Positions 1,005-10,789 of a stretch of 52,392 bases of DNA are shown piece after piece; position 1 is the stretch's first letter, and each line of letters opens with the position of its first letter. The stretch is from a virus, in IMG/VR virus record IMGVR_UViG_3300025131_005133, positions 1-52,392 of that record. The stretch is one strand, 5' to 3'. The translations under genes and the position numbers were made by a program. The notes under the pieces were generated by a model that was not told where the DNA came from, ran no database searches, and saw only the letters and a program-made list of their open reading frames with translations.

Positions 1005-3023
1005 ATGACAGAATTTAAAAAATTCAGCCTGTCAGACAATTTCATAGACGGATATAAAAGAAAAAGAGCACCATTCGGTTTTAACGGATTGGGTGAACTT
1101 GTCTATATGAGAACATATTCTCGTCTAAAAGATGATGGAAAAAACGAAATGTGGTGGGAAACTGTTAAGCGTGTTGTAGAGGGAACTTACAACATGCAAA
1201 AGAAACATATTGAGAGATATGATTTAGGGTGGAACGCGTGGCAAGCACAAAGGTCAGCACAGGAGATGTATGACCGAATTTTCAATATGAAATTCTTACC
1301 ACCCGGCCGAGGACTTTGGGCTATGGGAACATCAATAACCGAAGAACGAGGTTTGTACGCCGCCCTCAACAATTGTGCATTCGTATCAACACAAAATCTG
1401 AAAGATGATTTATCTAAACCATTTACATTCTTAATGGATGCAAGTATGGTTGGTGTTGGTGTTGGTTTTGATACAAAGGGTGCAGAATCGTTTGTTATAA
1501 GAGGACCCAAAACTGATAGAGGTATAGAAACATATGTAGTACCAGATACTCGTGAAGGATGGGTTGAATCAGTACGAAGATTATTAGATTCATATTTTCT
1601 TGGTATAACTCCAGTTGAGTTTGATTACACACAGATTAGAGAAAAGGGAGCACCAATCAAAGGATTCGGTGGTGTGTCAAGTGGTTACGAACCATTAGAA
1701 GAAGTCCATAATACCGTTAGAGAAACATTAGATAAGAATGTAGGTGAACCAATTTCAATAACTACAATCGTTGACATTATGAATCTAATCGGTAAGTGTG
1801 TTGTAGCTGGTAATGTAAGACGAACTGCTGAAATAGTATTTGGTGATTCAACATCAGAAGAATACATCAATTTAAAGAATTATAAAAAGAACCCACATAG
1901 AGAAACATATGGTTGGACATCAAACAATTCTATATTTGCTGAGTTGGGTATGGATTATACAGAAACGGCTGAACGAATAAATGATAATGGTGAACCTGGT
2001 TTCGCGTGGTTAGATAATATGAGAGAATATTCTCGTATGAAAAATGGTGGGGATAATAAAGATCACAGAGTTGCTGGTGGTAATCCCTGTCTTGAACAAT
2101 CACTTGAATCTTATGAGTTGTGTTGCTTGGTAGAAACATTTCCAAACAATCACGAGAGTTTAGAAGATTATATCAAGACATTGAAATACGCATATCTATA
2201 TGCTAAAACAGTAACACTTGGAAAAACACATTGGTCTGAAACAAATAGAGTGATGTTACGAAATAGAAGAATTGGAACATCAGTAAGTGGTGTGGCTCAA
2301 TTCATTACAGACAAAGGATTACATCAATTAAGAGAATGGTTAGAAAGTGGATATGATGCAATTCAAGATTATGATAAAATGTATTCAGATTGGTTAGCAG
2401 TTCCTCGTTCAATCAAAACTACATCAGTTAAACCAAGTGGAACTGTATCTCTATTAGCAGGAGCAACACCAGGATTACACTATCCTGAATCACGTTTCTA
2501 TATCAGACGAATAAGATTATCAATTAATTCACCATTAATCAAACCATTACAAAAAGCAGGTTACAACATAGAACCAGCTTTCGGTAGTGAAGATTCAACA
2601 GTAGTCGTAGATGTACCGGTTGATGTGGGTGAAGGTGTAAGAACAATTAACGATGTATCAATGTGGGAACAAATGAGTTTAGCAGCATTCATGCAAAAGT
2701 ATTGGGCAGATAACCAAGTAAGTTGTACTGTAACATTTGACCCTGATACAGAAGGACATCAGATAGCATCAGCACTTAACTATTTCCAATATCAGATGAA
2801 AGGTATATCATTCTTACCTAAAATGGAATTGGGTGCATACAAACAAATGCCATACGAAGAAATCACAAATAAAAAATATGATAAGATGGTAAAAGAATTA
2901 AGTTTCTTATCATTCAGACAAGTCAAAGGGAACGAAGCAGAAGTTGAAAAGTTCTGTAACAATGACCATTGTGAAATTGATTTTGGTGAATTGGTAGAGG
3001 AAACACAGGAAGCGGGGGTTTAA
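1005..3023 (+). CDS. nrdJ: Adenosylcobalamin-dependent (class II) ribonucleoside-triphosphate reductase
   Basis: A 672-residue enzyme that reduces ribonucleotides to deoxyribonucleotides for phage DNA synthesis. It matches the monomeric Lactobacillus leichmannii RTPR type. The redox Cys is in NNCAF (C124). The thiyl-radical Cys is in NPCLE (C362), carrying the Asn-x-Cys-x-Glu catalytic trio, and its disulfide partner lies 11 residues on (C373), as C408/C419 in RTPR. A C-terminal Cys-x4-Cys swing-arm pair is at about 651/656, like RTPR C731/C736. KPSGTVSLLAGATPG at about 475-489 is the phosphate-binding loop. At 672 residues it is somewhat shorter than RTPR (739). It needs vitamin B12 from the host and no second subunit. 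The start follows AGGAG at good spacing. The stop overlaps the next ATG (TAATG). Confidence 0.93.
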   Translation: MTEFKKFSLSDNFIDGYKRKRAPFGFNGLGELVYMRTYSRLKDDGKNEMWWETVKRVVEGTYNMQKKHIERYDLGWNAWQAQRSAQEMYDRIFNMKFLPPGRGLWAMGTSITEERGLYAALNNCAFVSTQNLKDDLSKPFTFLMDASMVGVGVGFDTKGAESFVIRGPKTDRGIETYVVPDTREGWVESVRRLLDSYFLGITPVEFDYTQIREKGAPIKGFGGVSSGYEPLEEVHNTVRETLDKNVGEPISITTIVDIMNLIGKCVVAGNVRRTAEIVFGDSTSEEYINLKNYKKNPHRETYGWTSNNSIFAELGMDYTETAERINDNGEPGFAWLDNMREYSRMKNGGDNKDHRVAGGNPCLEQSLESYELCCLVETFPNNHESLEDYIKTLKYAYLYAKTVTLGKTHWSETNRVMLRNRRIGTSVSGVAQFITDKGLHQLREWLESGYDAIQDYDKMYSDWLAVPRSIKTTSVKPSGTVSLLAGATPGLHYPESRFYIRRIRLSINSPLIKPLQKAGYNIEPAFGSEDSTVVVDVPVDVGEGVRTINDVSMWEQMSLAAFMQKYWADNQVSCTVTFDPDTEGHQIASALNYFQYQMKGISFLPKMELGAYKQMPYEEITNKKYDKMVKELSFLSFRQVKGNEAEVEKFCNNDHCEIDFGELVEETQEAGV

Positions 3024-3532
3024 TGAAAAATACAACTTGGAATAAAGATTGGAGAAAATCTGTTATCATATTAAGTGGTGGATTTGATCCAGTTCATAAA
3101 GGACATTTAAGAATGTTCAGAGAAGCATCTTGGCTAGGACATCAAGTAGTAGTAGGATTAAATTCAGATGAATGGTTAACACGAAAAAAAGGTAAACCAT
3201 TTATGGAGTTTAAAGAGAGAAAAGAAATACTTGAAGGGTTTAAATATATAAATCAAGTACTAGCTTTTGATGATTCAGATGATACTGCTTGTGGTTTACT
3301 TAAACAAGTTAGAACTATTTATAGTGGTGATGGATTTAACTATGATTATTTAGATACAAATCCTACTGGTGAGAATGAATATAAATTATACTTTGCTAAT
3401 GGTGGCGATAGAACAAAAGAAAATATTCCAGAAATTCCTGTATGTAAAGAACTTGGTGTTGAAATGTTATGGGGAATCGGTGGTGGTAAAATTCAATCAT
3501 CATCCTGGCTAACAAATGGAGAAGAAAAATAA
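3023..3532 (+). CDS. HxGH-family nucleotidyltransferase (cytidylyltransferase-like)
   Basis: A 169-residue protein of the nucleotidylyltransferase superfamily, which transfers CMP or AMP from the NTP to a phosphorylated substrate. GGFDPVHKGHL at about 19-29 holds the HxGH nucleotide-binding motif. GGGKIQSSSWL near the C-terminus is the position of the family's ISSS/T motif. The substrate (sugar-phosphate, glycerol-phosphate or other) cannot be read. A second member of the superfamily lies on the other side of the protease (4674-5114). Its 3' end probably overlaps the protease start. Confidence 0.75.
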   Translation: MKNTTWNKDWRKSVIILSGGFDPVHKGHLRMFREASWLGHQVVVGLNSDEWLTRKKGKPFMEFKERKEILEGFKYINQVLAFDDSDDTACGLLKQVRTIYSGDGFNYDYLDTNPTGENEYKLYFANGGDRTKENIPEIPVCKELGVEMLWGIGGGKIQSSSWLTNGEEK

Positions 3533-4665
3533 TTAGATTATTATTTATATTATTATTTTTATTTTCTTGTACGGATAATACAAATCCAGTAAGTACAGAA
3601 AATAATTTAACAACAATATCATCAGAAGCACTAACAATAAATCCTGGTGATTTACCAGAACCATTTATAGTTGGTGGTGAAGAAGTAGACCCAGCATGTC
3701 CAAATTGTAAATATGAATTTATGGTTTCACTTCGATATAGTGGTGGTCATTGGTGTGGTGGTTCACTTGTTAGAGAAGATTGGGTAATCACAGCCGCTCA
3801 TTGTGTAGAAGGAGTTTCAGAAAATAATCTTCAAGTTAAGATTGGATTACATAATGTTAATTCAACAACAGGAGCTATAACAAGAAATGTAGATGACATT
3901 ATAGTTCATCCACAATATAGTGGTTGGTCATTAGATAATGATTATGCTATACTACACTTATCATCACCTGTTACAAACTTTGAACCAATACAATTAGTTA
4001 CAGATGATTCACACGATGAAGAACCTGTAATGTCAACAACAATGGGTTGGGGTGCGACATCATCTGGTGGTGGTAGTTCTAATGTATTACTTGAAGTAGA
4101 TGTTCCAATTGACGATGGTTGTGGTAACTATTCTAATTCAGATATAACAAACAATATGGTTTGCGCAGGTGATGGTAACGGTGGTGAAGATTCTTGTCAA
4201 GGAGATAGTGGTGGTCCATTGATTATGACAAATGGTGATGGGGAGTATGAACTTATTGGTATAGTTAGCTGGGGATATGGTTGAGCTGAAGCTCAGTACC
4301 CGGGCGTGTACTCTCGAATATATCCAAGATTATCTTGGTTCTTTGATTATATAGGTGAACCTGAAACAGAATTTATTCCAGATTTATATGGTGATTCTAA
4401 CTTTGATGGTGTGATAAATGTTCTTGATATTGTTGTCATTGTAGGTTTTATATTGGGTAATGAAGAACCAACTGAAGAACAATCAATAACATCAGATATG
4501 AATCAAGATGGTGTTATAAATATTTTAGATGTGATATTGGTAGTAAATGAAGTTCTTGGAACATCATTTACACAATCAGTTCAATGGTTGGAAAAAACCT
4601 TTCCAGAATTAAAGACAAAGGAAAGATTAAGCAAATTAAATAAATTACAATATTTTGCTAAATAG
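3532..4665 (+). CDS. Exported trypsin-like lipoprotein protease with in-frame UGA and dockerin-like repeats
   Basis: One continuous frame runs from about 3529-3538 to TAA at 4665, broken only by UGA at 4282-4284. No ATG begins it: after GGAGAAG at 3518-3524 the plausible starts are ATA 3529 or ATT 3532 (CTG 3505 also possible). The N-terminus is a lipoprotein signal, a hydrophobic stretch ending LFLFSC, then a linker and IVGG, the usual mature N-terminus of trypsins. The triad is His in AAHC (~90), Asp in DNDY (~137) and Ser in GDSGGP (~226). Asp precedes SCQGDSGG at the 189 position, predicting Lys/Arg specificity. UGA (residue ~251) sits where conserved Cys220 belongs; its partner Cys191 and two other disulfides are intact. 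After the UGA the fold resumes with PGVYSRIYP, then two EF-hand dockerin-type repeats (D-x-N-x-D-G-V-I-N). Residue before IVGG is Phe, not Lys/Arg, so self-activation is not obvious. It may be a recoded gene or a pseudogene. Confidence 0.8.
4282..4312 (+). promoter_or_regulatory. UGA codon plus SECIS-like hairpin inside the protease gene
   Basis: Directly after the in-frame UGA (4282-4284) lies a GC-rich patch in a strongly AT-rich gene. AGTAC at 4295-4299 can pair with GTACT at 4308-4312. A further C4300-G4306 pair would bulge U4307 and leave a CGGGC loop. The stem starts about 10 bases after the UGA and the loop about 16, close to bacterial SECIS geometry. An alternative 5-bp stem, TGAGC/GCTCA (4282-4286 with 4291-4295) around a TGAA loop, would bury the UGA itself. 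The Pro-Gly-Val codons here are CCG GGC GTG, rare in the neighbouring genes, suggesting selection on RNA structure. Function is inferred. Confidence 0.5.
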
Positions 4666-5410: not shown

Positions 5411-7921
5411 ATGTACCAAAACATATATGTAAAAAGAACAAAGACAAATAGTGAAGTACATCTTTGGGATGACAAAACAGGTTATTCAAAATTTCAATAT
5501 AAACCATATGCATATTTAAAATCTCAAACTGGTCAACATCGTTCATTATATGGTGATAAGTTAAAAAAGGTAAACTTTTGGACAGGTGATGATATACAGA
5601 ATGGTAAAGTGTTTGAAAGTGATGTTCCAATTGAAACTCGTGTATTAGTAGATATGTATGGTGATTCTGATGAAATGTCAGAAAGTCATCGTGAAGTTTA
5701 TTTTGATATTGAAGTTGAGGTCACAAAAGGATTTCCAGACCCAAAAGAAGCTCGTAATAAGATAACTGCTATAGCATTATATGATAAGACAATAGATAAA
5801 TATCATTGTTTTGTTTTGGGTGATGTAAAGAATACAGATGTGATAGAATCATTTCGGTCAGAAGAAGAATTACTACAGAGATTTTATCAGAAATATCTTG
5901 AAATCAATCCTACAATATTGAGTGGTTGGAATATAGATGGATTTGATATTCCTTATTTATATAACAGAACTCGTAGAGTAATGGGTGAGAGTTTTGCTAA
6001 CGCACTTTCACCAATTGGAGAGGTGTTCTATTCAGAACATAAGAATAGATATAAGATAGCGGGTGTATCTTGTTTAGATTATTTAGCATTATATAAGAAG
6101 TTCACATACACACAACAATCATCATATAGGTTAGATTTCATAGGACAATTTGAGGTTGGACTTAGTAAGATTGAATATGAAGGAACACTTAATGATTTGT
6201 ATGAAACTGACATCAACAAGTTCATTGAATATAATTTGAATGATGTTAAGATAGTAAAAGCACTTGATGACAAGTTCGGTCTTATTAATTTAGCTATAGG
6301 CATCTCACATGTTGGACATACACCATACGAAGATGTATATTTCAGCAGTCGTTATCTTGAAGGAGCTCTATTAACTTATCTGAAAAAGATAAATGTAGTA
6401 GCACCTAATAAGAATTTAAGAGCTAAAGAACTGATGGATGGTGAGGAAAAGTTTACTGGTGCTTATGTAATGGAACCTGTTCCTGGTAGACACGCTTGGG
6501 TGTATGATTTAGATTTAACATCAATGTATCCGTCAATTATTATGACTTTGAACATATCACCTGAAATGAAAATAGGTAAATTGTTAGGATGGGATGTAAA
6601 AGAGTTTTTAAAGAGAACAAACAAAACATATTCGTTAGAAGTAGAAGGTAAGATAAAAGGTACTTTTAACGAGGCTGAGTTAGGCAGTATGTTAGCTTCA
6701 AACAAAGTTACACTCTCTACTAACGGAATCCTTTACAAAAATGATAGACCTGGATTGATACCATCTATCCTAGAAAAATGGTTTGATGAAAGAGTTGAGT
6801 TCAAAAAGTTAGCAAAAAAATATGCTGAAGATGGTGATAAACAGAAACATACATTTTTTGATAAACGACAGCATGTTCAAAAGATTATGTTGAATAGTTT
6901 GTACGGAGCATTAGGTCTTCCAGTATTCAGATTCTTTGATTTAGACAACGCCGCGGCAGTGACAACTTGTGGTCAAGAATTGATTAAATATACACAACAA
7001 ATGGCTAACTATTATTATAACAAAGAACTTAGTGATAAAGAAAAATATGTAATTTATACAGATACAGATAGTATATTCGTAAGTGCAGTTCCACTTGTAA
7101 AACATAGAAACCCCAACGCTGACACAGAAGATAATGAATATATGACGAAAGAGATATTATCAATAGCATCAGAGGTTCAAGAGTTTTTAAATGAAAGTTA
7201 TGATGTATTTGCAAAACGATTTCTAAATTGTGATGAACACAGATTTGATATTAAACAGGAAGTGATTTCAAAGTCAGCTTTTTGGGTGACAAAGAAAAGA
7301 TATGGTCAATGGATTATAAACGATGGTGGTGTTAAATGTGATAAGTTAGATGTCAAGGGATTAGATATTGTTAGGAGTAACTTTCCAGTAGCGTTTAAGA
7401 GTTTGATGACAGAGGTATTACAAGATATTCTTTCTGATGTAGATAAAGGTGAAATTGACACAAAGATATTAAATCTCAAATCATCAATGAAGGACATGAA
7501 ATTAACTGAAATTGCATTACCAACTGGTGTAAAGGGTATTCAAAAGTTTACTGATAAAAGTCGTAACAAATTTAATAGTATAGGTATGTTCACAAATATA
7601 AAAAAAGGTGCACCGGTTCATGTTAAGTCAGTAATAATCTACAACGATTTATTAAAACATTTTAGTTTAGATAAAGTAGAACCGATTAGAAATTCAGATA
7701 AAATCAAATGGGTGTATCTTAAATCAAATCCGTATGGTATAAAATCTATAGCGTTTAAGGATTATGAAGACCCAAAAGAGATAATGGATTTTATAGAACA
7801 ATATGTTGATTATGATAAACTGTTTGAACGAGCATTAAACAAGAAAATGAAAACTTGGTATGAAGCATTATCTTGGGAAGAACCAGTAGATAAACAATAT
7901 ACATTAGAGAGATTTTTTTAA
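5411..7921 (+). CDS. 43: Family B DNA polymerase, gp43-like
   Basis: An 836-residue replicative polymerase with a 3'-5' proofreading domain. Exo I is YFDIEVE (D99, E101), Exo II is WNIDGFDIPYLYNR and Exo III is YNLNDVKIV. Polymerase motif A is DLTSMYPSII (D368), motif B is KIMLNSLYGALG and motif C is YTDTDSIF (D551, D553). It is slightly shorter than T4 gp43 (898). No intein, intron or split is seen, although several T4-like phages split this gene. The ATG follows the preceding TAA directly with no clear Shine-Dalgarno sequence, so translation may be coupled. The clamp and clamp-loader genes follow, as in the T4 replisome block. Confidence 0.97.
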   Translation: MYQNIYVKRTKTNSEVHLWDDKTGYSKFQYKPYAYLKSQTGQHRSLYGDKLKKVNFWTGDDIQNGKVFESDVPIETRVLVDMYGDSDEMSESHREVYFDIEVEVTKGFPDPKEARNKITAIALYDKTIDKYHCFVLGDVKNTDVIESFRSEEELLQRFYQKYLEINPTILSGWNIDGFDIPYLYNRTRRVMGESFANALSPIGEVFYSEHKNRYKIAGVSCLDYLALYKKFTYTQQSSYRLDFIGQFEVGLSKIEYEGTLNDLYETDINKFIEYNLNDVKIVKALDDKFGLINLAIGISHVGHTPYEDVYFSSRYLEGALLTYLKKINVVAPNKNLRAKELMDGEEKFTGAYVMEPVPGRHAWVYDLDLTSMYPSIIMTLNISPEMKIGKLLGWDVKEFLKRTNKTYSLEVEGKIKGTFNEAELGSMLASNKVTLSTNGILYKNDRPGLIPSILEKWFDERVEFKKLAKKYAEDGDKQKHTFFDKRQHVQKIMLNSLYGALGLPVFRFFDLDNAAAVTTCGQELIKYTQQMANYYYNKELSDKEKYVIYTDTDSIFVSAVPLVKHRNPNADTEDNEYMTKEILSIASEVQEFLNESYDVFAKRFLNCDEHRFDIKQEVISKSAFWVTKKRYGQWIINDGGVKCDKLDVKGLDIVRSNFPVAFKSLMTEVLQDILSDVDKGEIDTKILNLKSSMKDMKLTEIALPTGVKGIQKFTDKSRNKFNSIGMFTNIKKGAPVHVKSVIIYNDLLKHFSLDKVEPIRNSDKIKWVYLKSNPYGIKSIAFKDYEDPKEIMDFIEQYVDYDKLFERALNKKMKTWYEALSWEEPVDKQYTLERFF

Positions 7922-7988: not shown

Positions 7989-8714
7989 ATGCAAAAAAGT
8001 AAGTTAGACAAGTTCATCCAAAAATACAACTTGGGTGGTAATGTAAATAGTGTTAAGTGGAAATCAGATGGAGATTCACTTTCAACATCATTTGTGACAC
8101 CAGACAAATCATTATTGGGTGAAGTAAGAGTAGATAAGTTCACATTTGAAGATGCTGAACTTGGTGTATATCAAACAGACCAACTAAAGAGTTTGATTGG
8201 TGTATTGGGTGATGATGTATCATTGACTTTATCAAGGTTCGGTGATAAAGCTGTATCATTAAAAGTAAAGAATGGTTCAGTATCAATTGATTATGTGTTA
8301 AGTGATTTATCAGTTATCGCAGACCCACCAGCACTTAAAAGATTACCTAATTTTGGAACACAGATTAAACTTGATACTAAGTTTATTGACACTTTCATCA
8401 AAGGTAAAGGTGCGTTAAGTGAAGTTGATACATTCACAGTTCTCAACAATGACAGAACAGGTAGAGTTGAGGTAATAATTGGTTATTCATCAATCAATAC
8501 AAATAGGGTAAACATTCCAGTAGAAACTACGACAAATGATTTGACAGACCCAGTTTCATTCAACGCCAATCTATTTAAAGAAGTGTTAGTTGCAAACAGA
8601 GAATGTACATCAGCAGTTCTTGAAGTTTCAAACGAAGGTTTAGCTCGTGTGAATTTCAAAGTTGATGATTATGATTCAACTTATTATGTAGTAGCAGTAC
8701 AGGATGTAGATTAA
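7989..8714 (+). CDS. 45: Sliding clamp, gp45-like
   Basis: A 241-residue protein of the size of T4 gp45 (228), the ring that tethers the polymerase to DNA and in T4 also activates late transcription. Support is the position right after gp43, the length, the alternating beta-strand pattern, and a C-terminus (YYVVAVQDVD) resembling the T4 end (NYVVALEAD). It lies upstream of gp44, a different order from T4 (62-44-45 upstream of the clamp). It has its own promoter, so it may be made in larger amounts than the polymerase. Confidence 0.82.
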   Translation: MQKSKLDKFIQKYNLGGNVNSVKWKSDGDSLSTSFVTPDKSLLGEVRVDKFTFEDAELGVYQTDQLKSLIGVLGDDVSLTLSRFGDKAVSLKVKNGSVSIDYVLSDLSVIADPPALKRLPNFGTQIKLDTKFIDTFIKGKGALSEVDTFTVLNNDRTGRVEVIIGYSSINTNRVNIPVETTTNDLTDPVSFNANLFKEVLVANRECTSAVLEVSNEGLARVNFKVDDYDSTYYVVAVQDVD

Positions 8715-8715
8715 T

Positions 8716-8865
8716 ATGAAAAAAGAGAAACGAGAATGGAAATATACATTGATGTTATCTGATGGTAATGGAGTATATTTTGCTAATTCATTGTGGGGAC
8801 TATTTACTGAAATATTATTACATAGATTATTTCATTTCAAGAGAGGTGATGGATGGCGGAATTAA
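8716..8865 (+). CDS. Small hypothetical protein between clamp and clamp loader
   Basis: A 49-residue frame beginning MKKEKREWKYTLML and ending GDGWRN, lying between the clamp stop and the clamp-loader ATG, which it overlaps by 13 bases. The basic start and a mixed hydrophobic middle give no clear domain. Its stop at 8863-8865 lies just after the gp44 start, suggesting translational coupling. Function unknown. Confidence 0.5.
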   Translation: MKKEKREWKYTLMLSDGNGVYFANSLWGLFTEILLHRLFHFKRGDGWRN

Positions 8866-9767
8866 GTCATTCTCTTTGGGTAGAGAAATACAGACCATCA
8901 GACTTAAATACATACATAGGTAACGAACATCTAAAAAGTAAGGTAAGTATTTATCTTGAATCAGAAGATGTTCCCCACTTATTGTTGTATGGAGTTGCTG
9001 GAACTGGTAAAACAACATTAGCTAAAATTATTACAAGTAATATTGATTGTGATTATCTTTACATCAACGCGTCAGATGAGAACAATGTAGATAATGTCAG
9101 AACAAAGATAAAGAACTTTGCTTCTACAATAGGATTTAGAGAATTAAAAATAGTCATACTTGATGAAGCTGATTTCCTTACACCGAACGCACAAGCAGCA
9201 CTTCGTAACTTGATGGAAACATTCTCAAAACATTGTCGGTTCATATTGACTTGTAATTATGTGGAGAGAATCATAGACCCAATTCAATCAAGATGTCAAC
9301 CATATAAGATTGTTCCACCTTCAAGAAAAGAAGTGGCTATTCAATTAAAGAGTATTTTTGAAGCTGAAAATGTTACATTCAAGCTTGATGATTTAGCTTT
9401 AATCGTAAACGCCGGTTATCCAGATATTCGTAGGGTAATCAATTCGGCACAACGACAAGTTGTAGATGGTGAGTTAAAGATTGATGTTAGTTCAGTAATT
9501 CAAAATAATTACAAAGTTCAATTATTAGAAATGTTGAGTGATGGTTCAAAGTTTAACGACTTACGAAAGCTGATAGCAGATAATTCAGTTAGTGATTATG
9601 CCGAACTATATCGTTTATTATATGATGAGGTAGATACCTATTCAAATGGTAAAGTGGCTGAATGTATATTAGCAATCGCTGAAGGTGAATTTAACGATGT
9701 AAATGTTGTGGATAAGGAAATATGTTTTATGTCCACATTAATTAAAATAATGAGGATAATTAAATGA
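8853..9767 (+). CDS. 44: Clamp-loader ATPase, gp44-like
   Basis: A 304-residue AAA+ protein that opens the sliding clamp and loads it on primed DNA using ATP. Walker A is GVAGTGKTT at about 47-55, Walker B is VILDEADF at about 101-108, and the sensor/arginine-finger motif SRC follows IDPIQ at about 145-150. SLWVEKYRP at the N-terminus is typical of RFC and gp44 small subunits. Its partner gp62-like subunit is encoded at 10370. The stop overlaps the next ATG (ATGA). Confidence 0.95.
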   Translation: MAELSHSLWVEKYRPSDLNTYIGNEHLKSKVSIYLESEDVPHLLLYGVAGTGKTTLAKIITSNIDCDYLYINASDENNVDNVRTKIKNFASTIGFRELKIVILDEADFLTPNAQAALRNLMETFSKHCRFILTCNYVERIIDPIQSRCQPYKIVPPSRKEVAIQLKSIFEAENVTFKLDDLALIVNAGYPDIRRVINSAQRQVVDGELKIDVSSVIQNNYKVQLLEMLSDGSKFNDLRKLIADNSVSDYAELYRLLYDEVDTYSNGKVAECILAIAEGEFNDVNVVDKEICFMSTLIKIMRIIK

Positions 9768-10166: not shown

Positions 10167-10373
10167 ATGCCGTTCTACACTTTCAGATGTCTATCTTGTA
10201 ATCAAGAACAAGAAGTATTACAGAAAATAGATGAACCAGAACCAGTATGTGAAAGATGTGTTAATGCTAGTTGTGGTGTCCATATAGTAGAAATGGAAAG
10301 AGTGTTTAAAGTTAACGCTAAACCACATTCAAAAGATGGTTCGTGGGATTTTAAAAAGGATAAACCAAAATGA
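10167..10373 (+). CDS. FmdB-like zinc-ribbon protein
   Basis: A 68-residue protein starting MPFYTFRCLSC, the typical opening of FmdB-family zinc ribbons (MP.Y.Y.C..C), with a second pair CERC and another Cys at about 37. Its ATG abuts the previous stop. The stop overlaps the gp62 start. The family is common in bacteria and T4-like phages; its function is unproven. Confidence 0.68.
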   Translation: MPFYTFRCLSCNQEQEVLQKIDEPEPVCERCVNASCGVHIVEMERVFKVNAKPHSKDGSWDFKKDKPK

Positions 10374-10789
10374 CAATTATAGATTGGATGAACCAGTTGT
10401 TGGTTCACAAGAAATCGTGGGAAGAACATTCAGAAACAGACAGAAAGAAGTTCAGTCCATTTATACTAAACAGATGGTTGTCAATGGATATAGATTTCAT
10501 AGAGATAGTGAACTACTTTCAGAAATATTCTATTGGCCAATTAAAACCAAAAGAAGTATATAAGTGGTATTGTGATGTTTTACCAAAAGGTAAACGATAT
10601 AACAAATACATCAAAGGTAAGAAATCAAAAAAATATGACGAATGGTTAACAAAACTCTTGTGTAATCATTTTGAATGTAGTAAGTTACAAGTAATAGAAT
10701 ATCTTGAACTAATAAATAAACAAGAATTAAAAGACATCTTGGAGATGTATGGGATAGATAAAAAACAAATGAAGAAGGTATGCAAATGA
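10370..10789 (+). CDS. 62: Clamp-loader small subunit, gp62-like
   Basis: A 139-residue helical, basic protein. VLPKGKRYNKYIK at about 69-81 matches the VPRGKRYGKWAK element of T4 gp62, the non-ATPase subunit that completes the gp44/62 loader. It is shorter than T4 gp62 (187). The location three small genes after gp44 supports the call. The similarity is short, so the call rests on motif and position together. Confidence 0.7.
   Translation: MTIIDWMNQLLVHKKSWEEHSETDRKKFSPFILNRWLSMDIDFIEIVNYFQKYSIGQLKPKEVYKWYCDVLPKGKRYNKYIKGKKSKKYDEWLTKLLCNHFECSKLQVIEYLELINKQELKDILEMYGIDKKQMKKVCK

Follow-up and report, generated by a model that had tools for sequence, protein, structure and literature searches.

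A phage trypsin-like lipoprotein with UGA in place of the cysteine-220 codon is very probably a selenoprotein

The stretch of DNA analysed here (the window) is the whole IMG/VR record IMGVR_UViG_3300025131_005133 of 52,392 bases, which is probably a genome fragment of a virus. On its + strand, at 3529..4665, lies a gene for a lipoprotein-type trypsin with a C-terminal dockerin repeat, and a TGA codon stands in its frame at 4282..4284. Is this codon a stop, an error, or a site of selenocysteine (Sec) insertion? Since a Cys codon has turned into UGA and a small conserved RNA hairpin follows it, the viral product is very probably a protein that contains selenium. I am highly confident in reading the protease as a phage selenoprotein, whose UGA would be decoded as Sec by means of a hairpin of the Sec insertion sequence (SECIS) type within the coding sequence.

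The frame is open from 5′ of position 3532 to a TAA at 4663-4665, and its single TGA lies within SWGYG*AEAQYPGVYSRI. Pfam recognizes Trypsin (PF00089, 2.1e-52) before the TGA and Dockerin_1 (PF00404, 1.5e-11) after it, with the dockerin type I repeat region at 4387..4557 (+). By alignment and position, the catalytic triad consists of His57 (3799-3801), Asp102 (3940-3942) and Ser195 (4207-4209), all on the + strand like Asp189, the determinant of Lys/Arg specificity (4189-4191), and Cys191 (4195-4197), the expected partner of residue 220. In the alignment with 1utj, the TGA falls on trypsin Cys220 (SWGYGCAEPGNPGVYAKV in 1utj), and the trypsin domain runs on 3′ of it (PGVYSRIYPRLSWFF). The protein thus shares with the S1A serine proteases the triad, Asp189, Cys191, the IVGG activation site and the position of Cys220, while it differs from them in the predicted Sec, the lipoprotein signal and the C-terminal dockerin repeat. 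The preliminary description of this locus had proposed one frame with a lipoprotein-like signal, a trypsin domain with a full triad, the protease end and a dockerin repeat, and translation, Pfam and positions agree on this. Its placing of the UGA exactly at Cys220 also held, and the intact Cys191 proved to be invariant in the alignment. Its start at position 3532 did not hold. Where the relatives read ...AAAATG ATT AGA, the window copy has ...AAAATA ATT AGA, a state common to it and contig L001, so that their ATG corresponds to ATA 3529-3531 and no ATG start exists here. The start codon of the window copy is probably this ATA, which would overlap the stop of the upstream gene. An AlphaFold2 model of the trypsin had a mean predicted local distance difference test score of 58.5, with values below 50 around the Sec, and was set aside.

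Which codons occupy position 220 in other copies of the gene? Two scans of IMG/VR gave about 32 viral contigs with the protease gene and this codon covered. It was found that codon 220 is TGA in 16 distinct sequences and TGT in 13, with no other codon, and that no viral relative has a second in-frame stop in the gene. Among 90 cellular matches, the codon is TGC or TGT in 89 and GGA in a single distant one. Homologues therefore have either Cys or TGA at this codon, that one match excepted, as expected from the preliminary proposal. As is characteristic of bacterial-type selenoproteins, an in-frame UGA is aligned with the Cys of homologues and the frame is conserved on both sides. From codon +13 to the stop, the nonsynonymous rate was lower than the synonymous rate (pN < pS) in 120/120 pairs of TGA copies, with a median pN/pS of 0.45 (0.31 upstream), which indicates that the part of the gene 3′ of the TGA is under purifying selection. 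When the tree was built without the hairpin columns, seven switches between TGA and Cys were counted, at least four of them on supported branches. Such repeated switching suggests that Sec is useful yet dispensable. Judged from these comparisons, the TGA/TGT pattern fits an exchange of Sec and Cys, and neither decay nor error would produce it.

A hairpin of the SECIS type was found in the coding sequence at 4294..4313 (+), with the apical loop GGGC at 4302-4305. In the window it reads CAGTAC-CCGGGCGT-GTACTC. The TGA copies have CAGTAC, GGATAC or GGGTAC, then a loop resembling CCGGGCGT, then GTACTC or GTATTC, and contigs L135 and L141 have GGGTAT, CCGGGAGT and ATACTC. Two pairs are compensatory. 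Positions 15 and 30 form GC in some sequences and AU in others, positions 18 and 27 form CG or UA, and neither pair is ever mismatched; the exchanges use third codon positions and are synonymous. In 7 of the 16 TGA sequences, including that of the window, the outermost positions do not pair. None of 500 shuffles reached the covariation score of the 16 TGA sequences. At the same positions, the 13 Cys sequences were indistinguishable from shuffles, and the hairpin is not kept in them. Third-position GC content is raised locally: over the twelve codons that follow the TGA it amounts to 0.42-0.75, whereas the Cys copies have 0-0.33 there and the rest of the gene has 0.07-0.20. Bacterial SECIS elements carry a G-rich apical loop about 16-37 nucleotides after the UGA, and the spacing here is within this range, since the loop starts 17 nucleotides 3′ of the UGA. 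Covariation and placement are thus those of a SECIS, while the folding energy alone is not distinctive. The hairpin that the preliminary description saw after the UGA was right in kind only: the most stable fold near the UGA in the window, TGAGC-TGAA-GCTCA, is not the conserved element. The Fisher value of 2.5e-7 overstates the case because the sequences are related. Four independent pairs lie on supported branches. On average, 3.7 of them have the hairpin together with the TGA and none shows the opposite, four being too few for a significant sign test.

Is the protease the only gene of this kind in the viral lineage? In the relative G002, a T4-like phage sequence of 113 kb with a major head protein, tail sheath, gp32, UvsX and other T4-type genes, a thioredoxin gene beside gp32 (L146:15079-15423) has a UGA at the first active-site Cys (WUGPC). 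With 13 further contigs (L242-L254 and L244), the codon is TGA in 14/14 viral contigs covering it, and a hairpin lies about 22 nucleotides downstream. In L251, the protein changes from QV to RS while the GAGC/GCUC stem is retained and the loop becomes GGUC. G003 holds both a TGA protease and a TGA thioredoxin, as does the contig of L122 and L242. G002 also has a tRNA-Sec gene with the anticodon UCA and an encoded CCA (69.4 bits; gathering score 47), at G002:C1:103633-103727 (L142:1501-1595), which starts directly after the polynucleotide kinase gene. The same phage has a tRNA-Arg and a transfer-messenger RNA (tag GNEYQYMAVA; L149:11967-12387). When 693 kb of viral sequence were screened mechanically for further genes with a UGA, the hits were mostly antisense frames and gene ends, and only the trypsin and the thioredoxin were convincing. 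It is likely, though less firmly so than for the protease by itself, that a T4-like phage lineage has a selenoproteome of its own. This would comprise at least two selenoproteins, the UGPC thioredoxin and the lipoprotein trypsin, whose Sec would be part of the disulfide at the S1 pocket, and one or more members would supply a phage tRNA-Sec to decode UGA in the infected cell. Selenoproteins of bacteriophages would then be described for the first time, and the still unassigned trypsin-like selenoprotein family from the ocean would have its source here.

Could the UGA be explained without Sec? In programmed readthrough, which the preliminary description had offered as an alternative, a near-cognate tRNA would occasionally read the UGA and give a minor extended product with the dockerin. 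A single stop in an otherwise open and conserved frame, with a hairpin behind it, is what this would predict. However, the stop interrupts the protease domain precisely at a Cys position, and it is replaced there by Cys codons alone, TAA and TAG never being seen; the same UGA-at-Cys pattern recurs at the thioredoxin active site; and a relative phage has a tRNA-Sec. Plain readthrough does not explain why UGA and Cys replace one another or why the hairpin accompanies the UGA, and I regard it as improbable. It is even less probable that the gene is a pseudogene or carries a sequencing error at the TGA, to which the one in-frame stop and the non-ATG start of the window copy might point. The TGA is at an identical position in 16 distinct sequences from many metagenomes, with no second stop and with purifying selection 3′ of it, so that the earlier argument against simple decay stands. 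An isolated base-calling error is unlikely because L001, from a different metagenome, is identical to the window copy over the gene.

A UGA inside a coding frame would also be seen if the phage had generally reassigned this codon, for example to Trp, Gly or Cys. This hardly comes into consideration: 26 of the 51 listed window genes end in TGA, and 25 of these 26 have another in-frame stop within 13 codons. The preliminary description had likewise argued against general reassignment from the many genes that stop at UGA. Furthermore, the window has no tRNA, and the sole tRNA with a UCA anticodon found among the relatives is a canonical tRNA-Sec. Equally remote is the production of two separate proteins, the second being a dockerin protein whose translation would begin anew downstream after termination at the UGA, for instance at GTG 4306, from which an open reading frame (4306-4665) is indeed listed. 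The Cys copies are continuous, the trypsin domain extends past the UGA, and a conserved start or ribosome site was not seen. On these grounds, all five explanations (readthrough, pseudogene, base error, general reassignment and restart) were rejected in favour of Sec insertion.

Where would the machinery for Sec insertion come from? Matches to the phage tRNA-Sec were found in 25 of the 245 genomes from the phylum to which a metagenome-assembled genome of the Fibrobacterota-Chlorobiota-Bacteroidota (FCB) group belongs, the best match being 79% over 84 nucleotides (G200), and all 12 genome matches that were fetched are tRNA-Sec. The phage tRNA-Sec had no match in 247 Bacteroidota genomes. Most Bacteroidota are not known to have Sec, and this null result is weak for that reason. 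Many of the genomes G183-G211 of the FCB-group phylum have dozens of dockerin repeats like the phage repeat. In this dockerin-rich clade, tRNA-Sec is above the cut-off in 20 of 28 genomes, SelB is present in 14 of 18, and SelA in 5 of 5 tested. One of its genomes, G207, has a trypsin 69% identical to that of the phage, in the Cys form and without a stop, among genes presumably chromosomal (MsrA-like and nitroreductase-like proteins, recognized by eye). In the same genome (G207:C63:22870-24725), SelB is in two adjacent frames behind selA, which is either a real frameshift or an assembly error. The related metagenome-assembled genome G026 has SelB, and its SelD itself reads GSGUACK. The clade is a candidate host on this evidence, and it may be Fidelibacterota (Marinimicrobia). 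The preliminary description would have given up its proposal if Sec or suppressor machinery were lacking in the phage and its likely hosts and the UGA were not conserved. The UGA is conserved, a relative phage has a tRNA-Sec, and the candidate host clade has tRNA-Sec as well as SelA and SelB.

Several observations weigh against a phage selenoprotein. No tRNA gene, tRNA-Sec included, was found in the window, and none of the viral contigs other than G002, mostly short ones, has a tRNA-Sec above the cut-off; nor was selA, selB or selD found on the viral contigs tested. In G002, which carries the tRNA-Sec, the protease gene encodes Cys at this position. The hairpin is weak, its single-sequence folding energy being no better than that of shuffles, and the evidence for it is comparative. 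Finally, the window copy is possibly poorly expressed because of its probable ATA start.

The identity of the virus itself rests on other genes. PHROGs identified T4-like replication genes on the + strand of the window, namely a DNA polymerase (5411-7921), a sliding clamp (7989-8714) and a clamp loader (8853-9767 and 10370-10789). The polymerase and its counterpart in Microcystis phage Mel-JY01 share 47% identity. Together with the head, tail sheath, gp32 and UvsX genes of G002, these genes indicate that the window belongs to a T4-like virus of bacteria, one known from environmental DNA alone. Upstream of the protease, a gene for a Mom-type DNA modification protein (119-913; PF25680, 1.8e-52) adjoins that for a B12-dependent ribonucleotide reductase (1005-3023). 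Downstream, a long series of forward genes of similar size occupies 13585-45347; the first one scanned encodes a glycosyltransferase.

It is known that selenoproteins directed by a bacterial SECIS, such as Escherichia coli formate dehydrogenase H, have a short hairpin with a small G-rich apical loop in the coding sequence just after the UGA. The phage genes have a short coding-sequence hairpin at the same place, with a GGUC loop in the thioredoxin of L251. They differ in that the protease is another, phage-borne enzyme with a short and weak stem and with the predicted Sec at a structural disulfide, not at a redox active site. Nine Global Ocean Sampling sequences led in 2008 to the prediction of a selenoprotein family of trypsin-like serine proteases, with the organism not given (Zhang and Gladyshev, PMC2398784), and a 2022 review still gives no accession for it (PMC9312934). 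Matched by description, that family and the phage genes share a trypsin-like domain, Sec predicted at the position of a conserved Cys, homologues with Cys, a bacterial-type SECIS and an origin in marine reads (PMC2398784). In contrast to those nine reads, the genes described here are placed in T4-like phages and come with a Cys partner, covariation and a candidate host clade. Judged by its published description, the family of 2008 probably has its source in this phage group. In the open-access papers searched, the viral selenoproteins described are the poxvirus glutathione peroxidases, which likewise depend on the Sec machinery of the host; these belong to eukaryotic viruses, have a SECIS of the eukaryotic type, and no viral tRNA-Sec is mentioned for them (PMC8310308). 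I found no report of a bacteriophage selenoprotein or phage tRNA-Sec in the open-access literature, and earlier reports elsewhere are possible. A survey of tRNA-Sec does not mention phages or viruses (PMC5330540), and no relative of the protease was found among the INPHARED phages.

How might the gene work during infection? In the infected cell, the host SelA, SelB and SelD, with a tRNA-Sec from the host or the phage, would decode UGA 4282-4284 as Sec, the hairpin at 4294-4313 directing the host SelB to insert it at residue 220. The product would be a lipid-anchored, exported zymogen of the trypsin type with a C-terminal dockerin repeat, cleaved before IVGG, in which Sec220, standing in for Cys220, should be joined to Cys191 by a selenosulfide next to the S1 pocket. 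If the machinery were missing, translation would stop at the UGA and give a product without the end of the protease domain and without the dockerin. The role may be the trimming of host-surface proteins. Sec might be kept because the bridge closes more quickly or is sturdier outside the cell, or because it makes the S1 pocket redox-sensitive.

A Sec at the structural disulfide of a serine protease, and not at a redox active site, is unusual. If the reading as a selenoprotein is true, an organism could be assigned to a selenoprotein family that has been open since 2008. Other such viral genes have probably been missed because gene callers cut them at the UGA. If true, the finding would also mean that Sec is worth keeping during infection, and that phages could move selenoprotein genes between bacteria.
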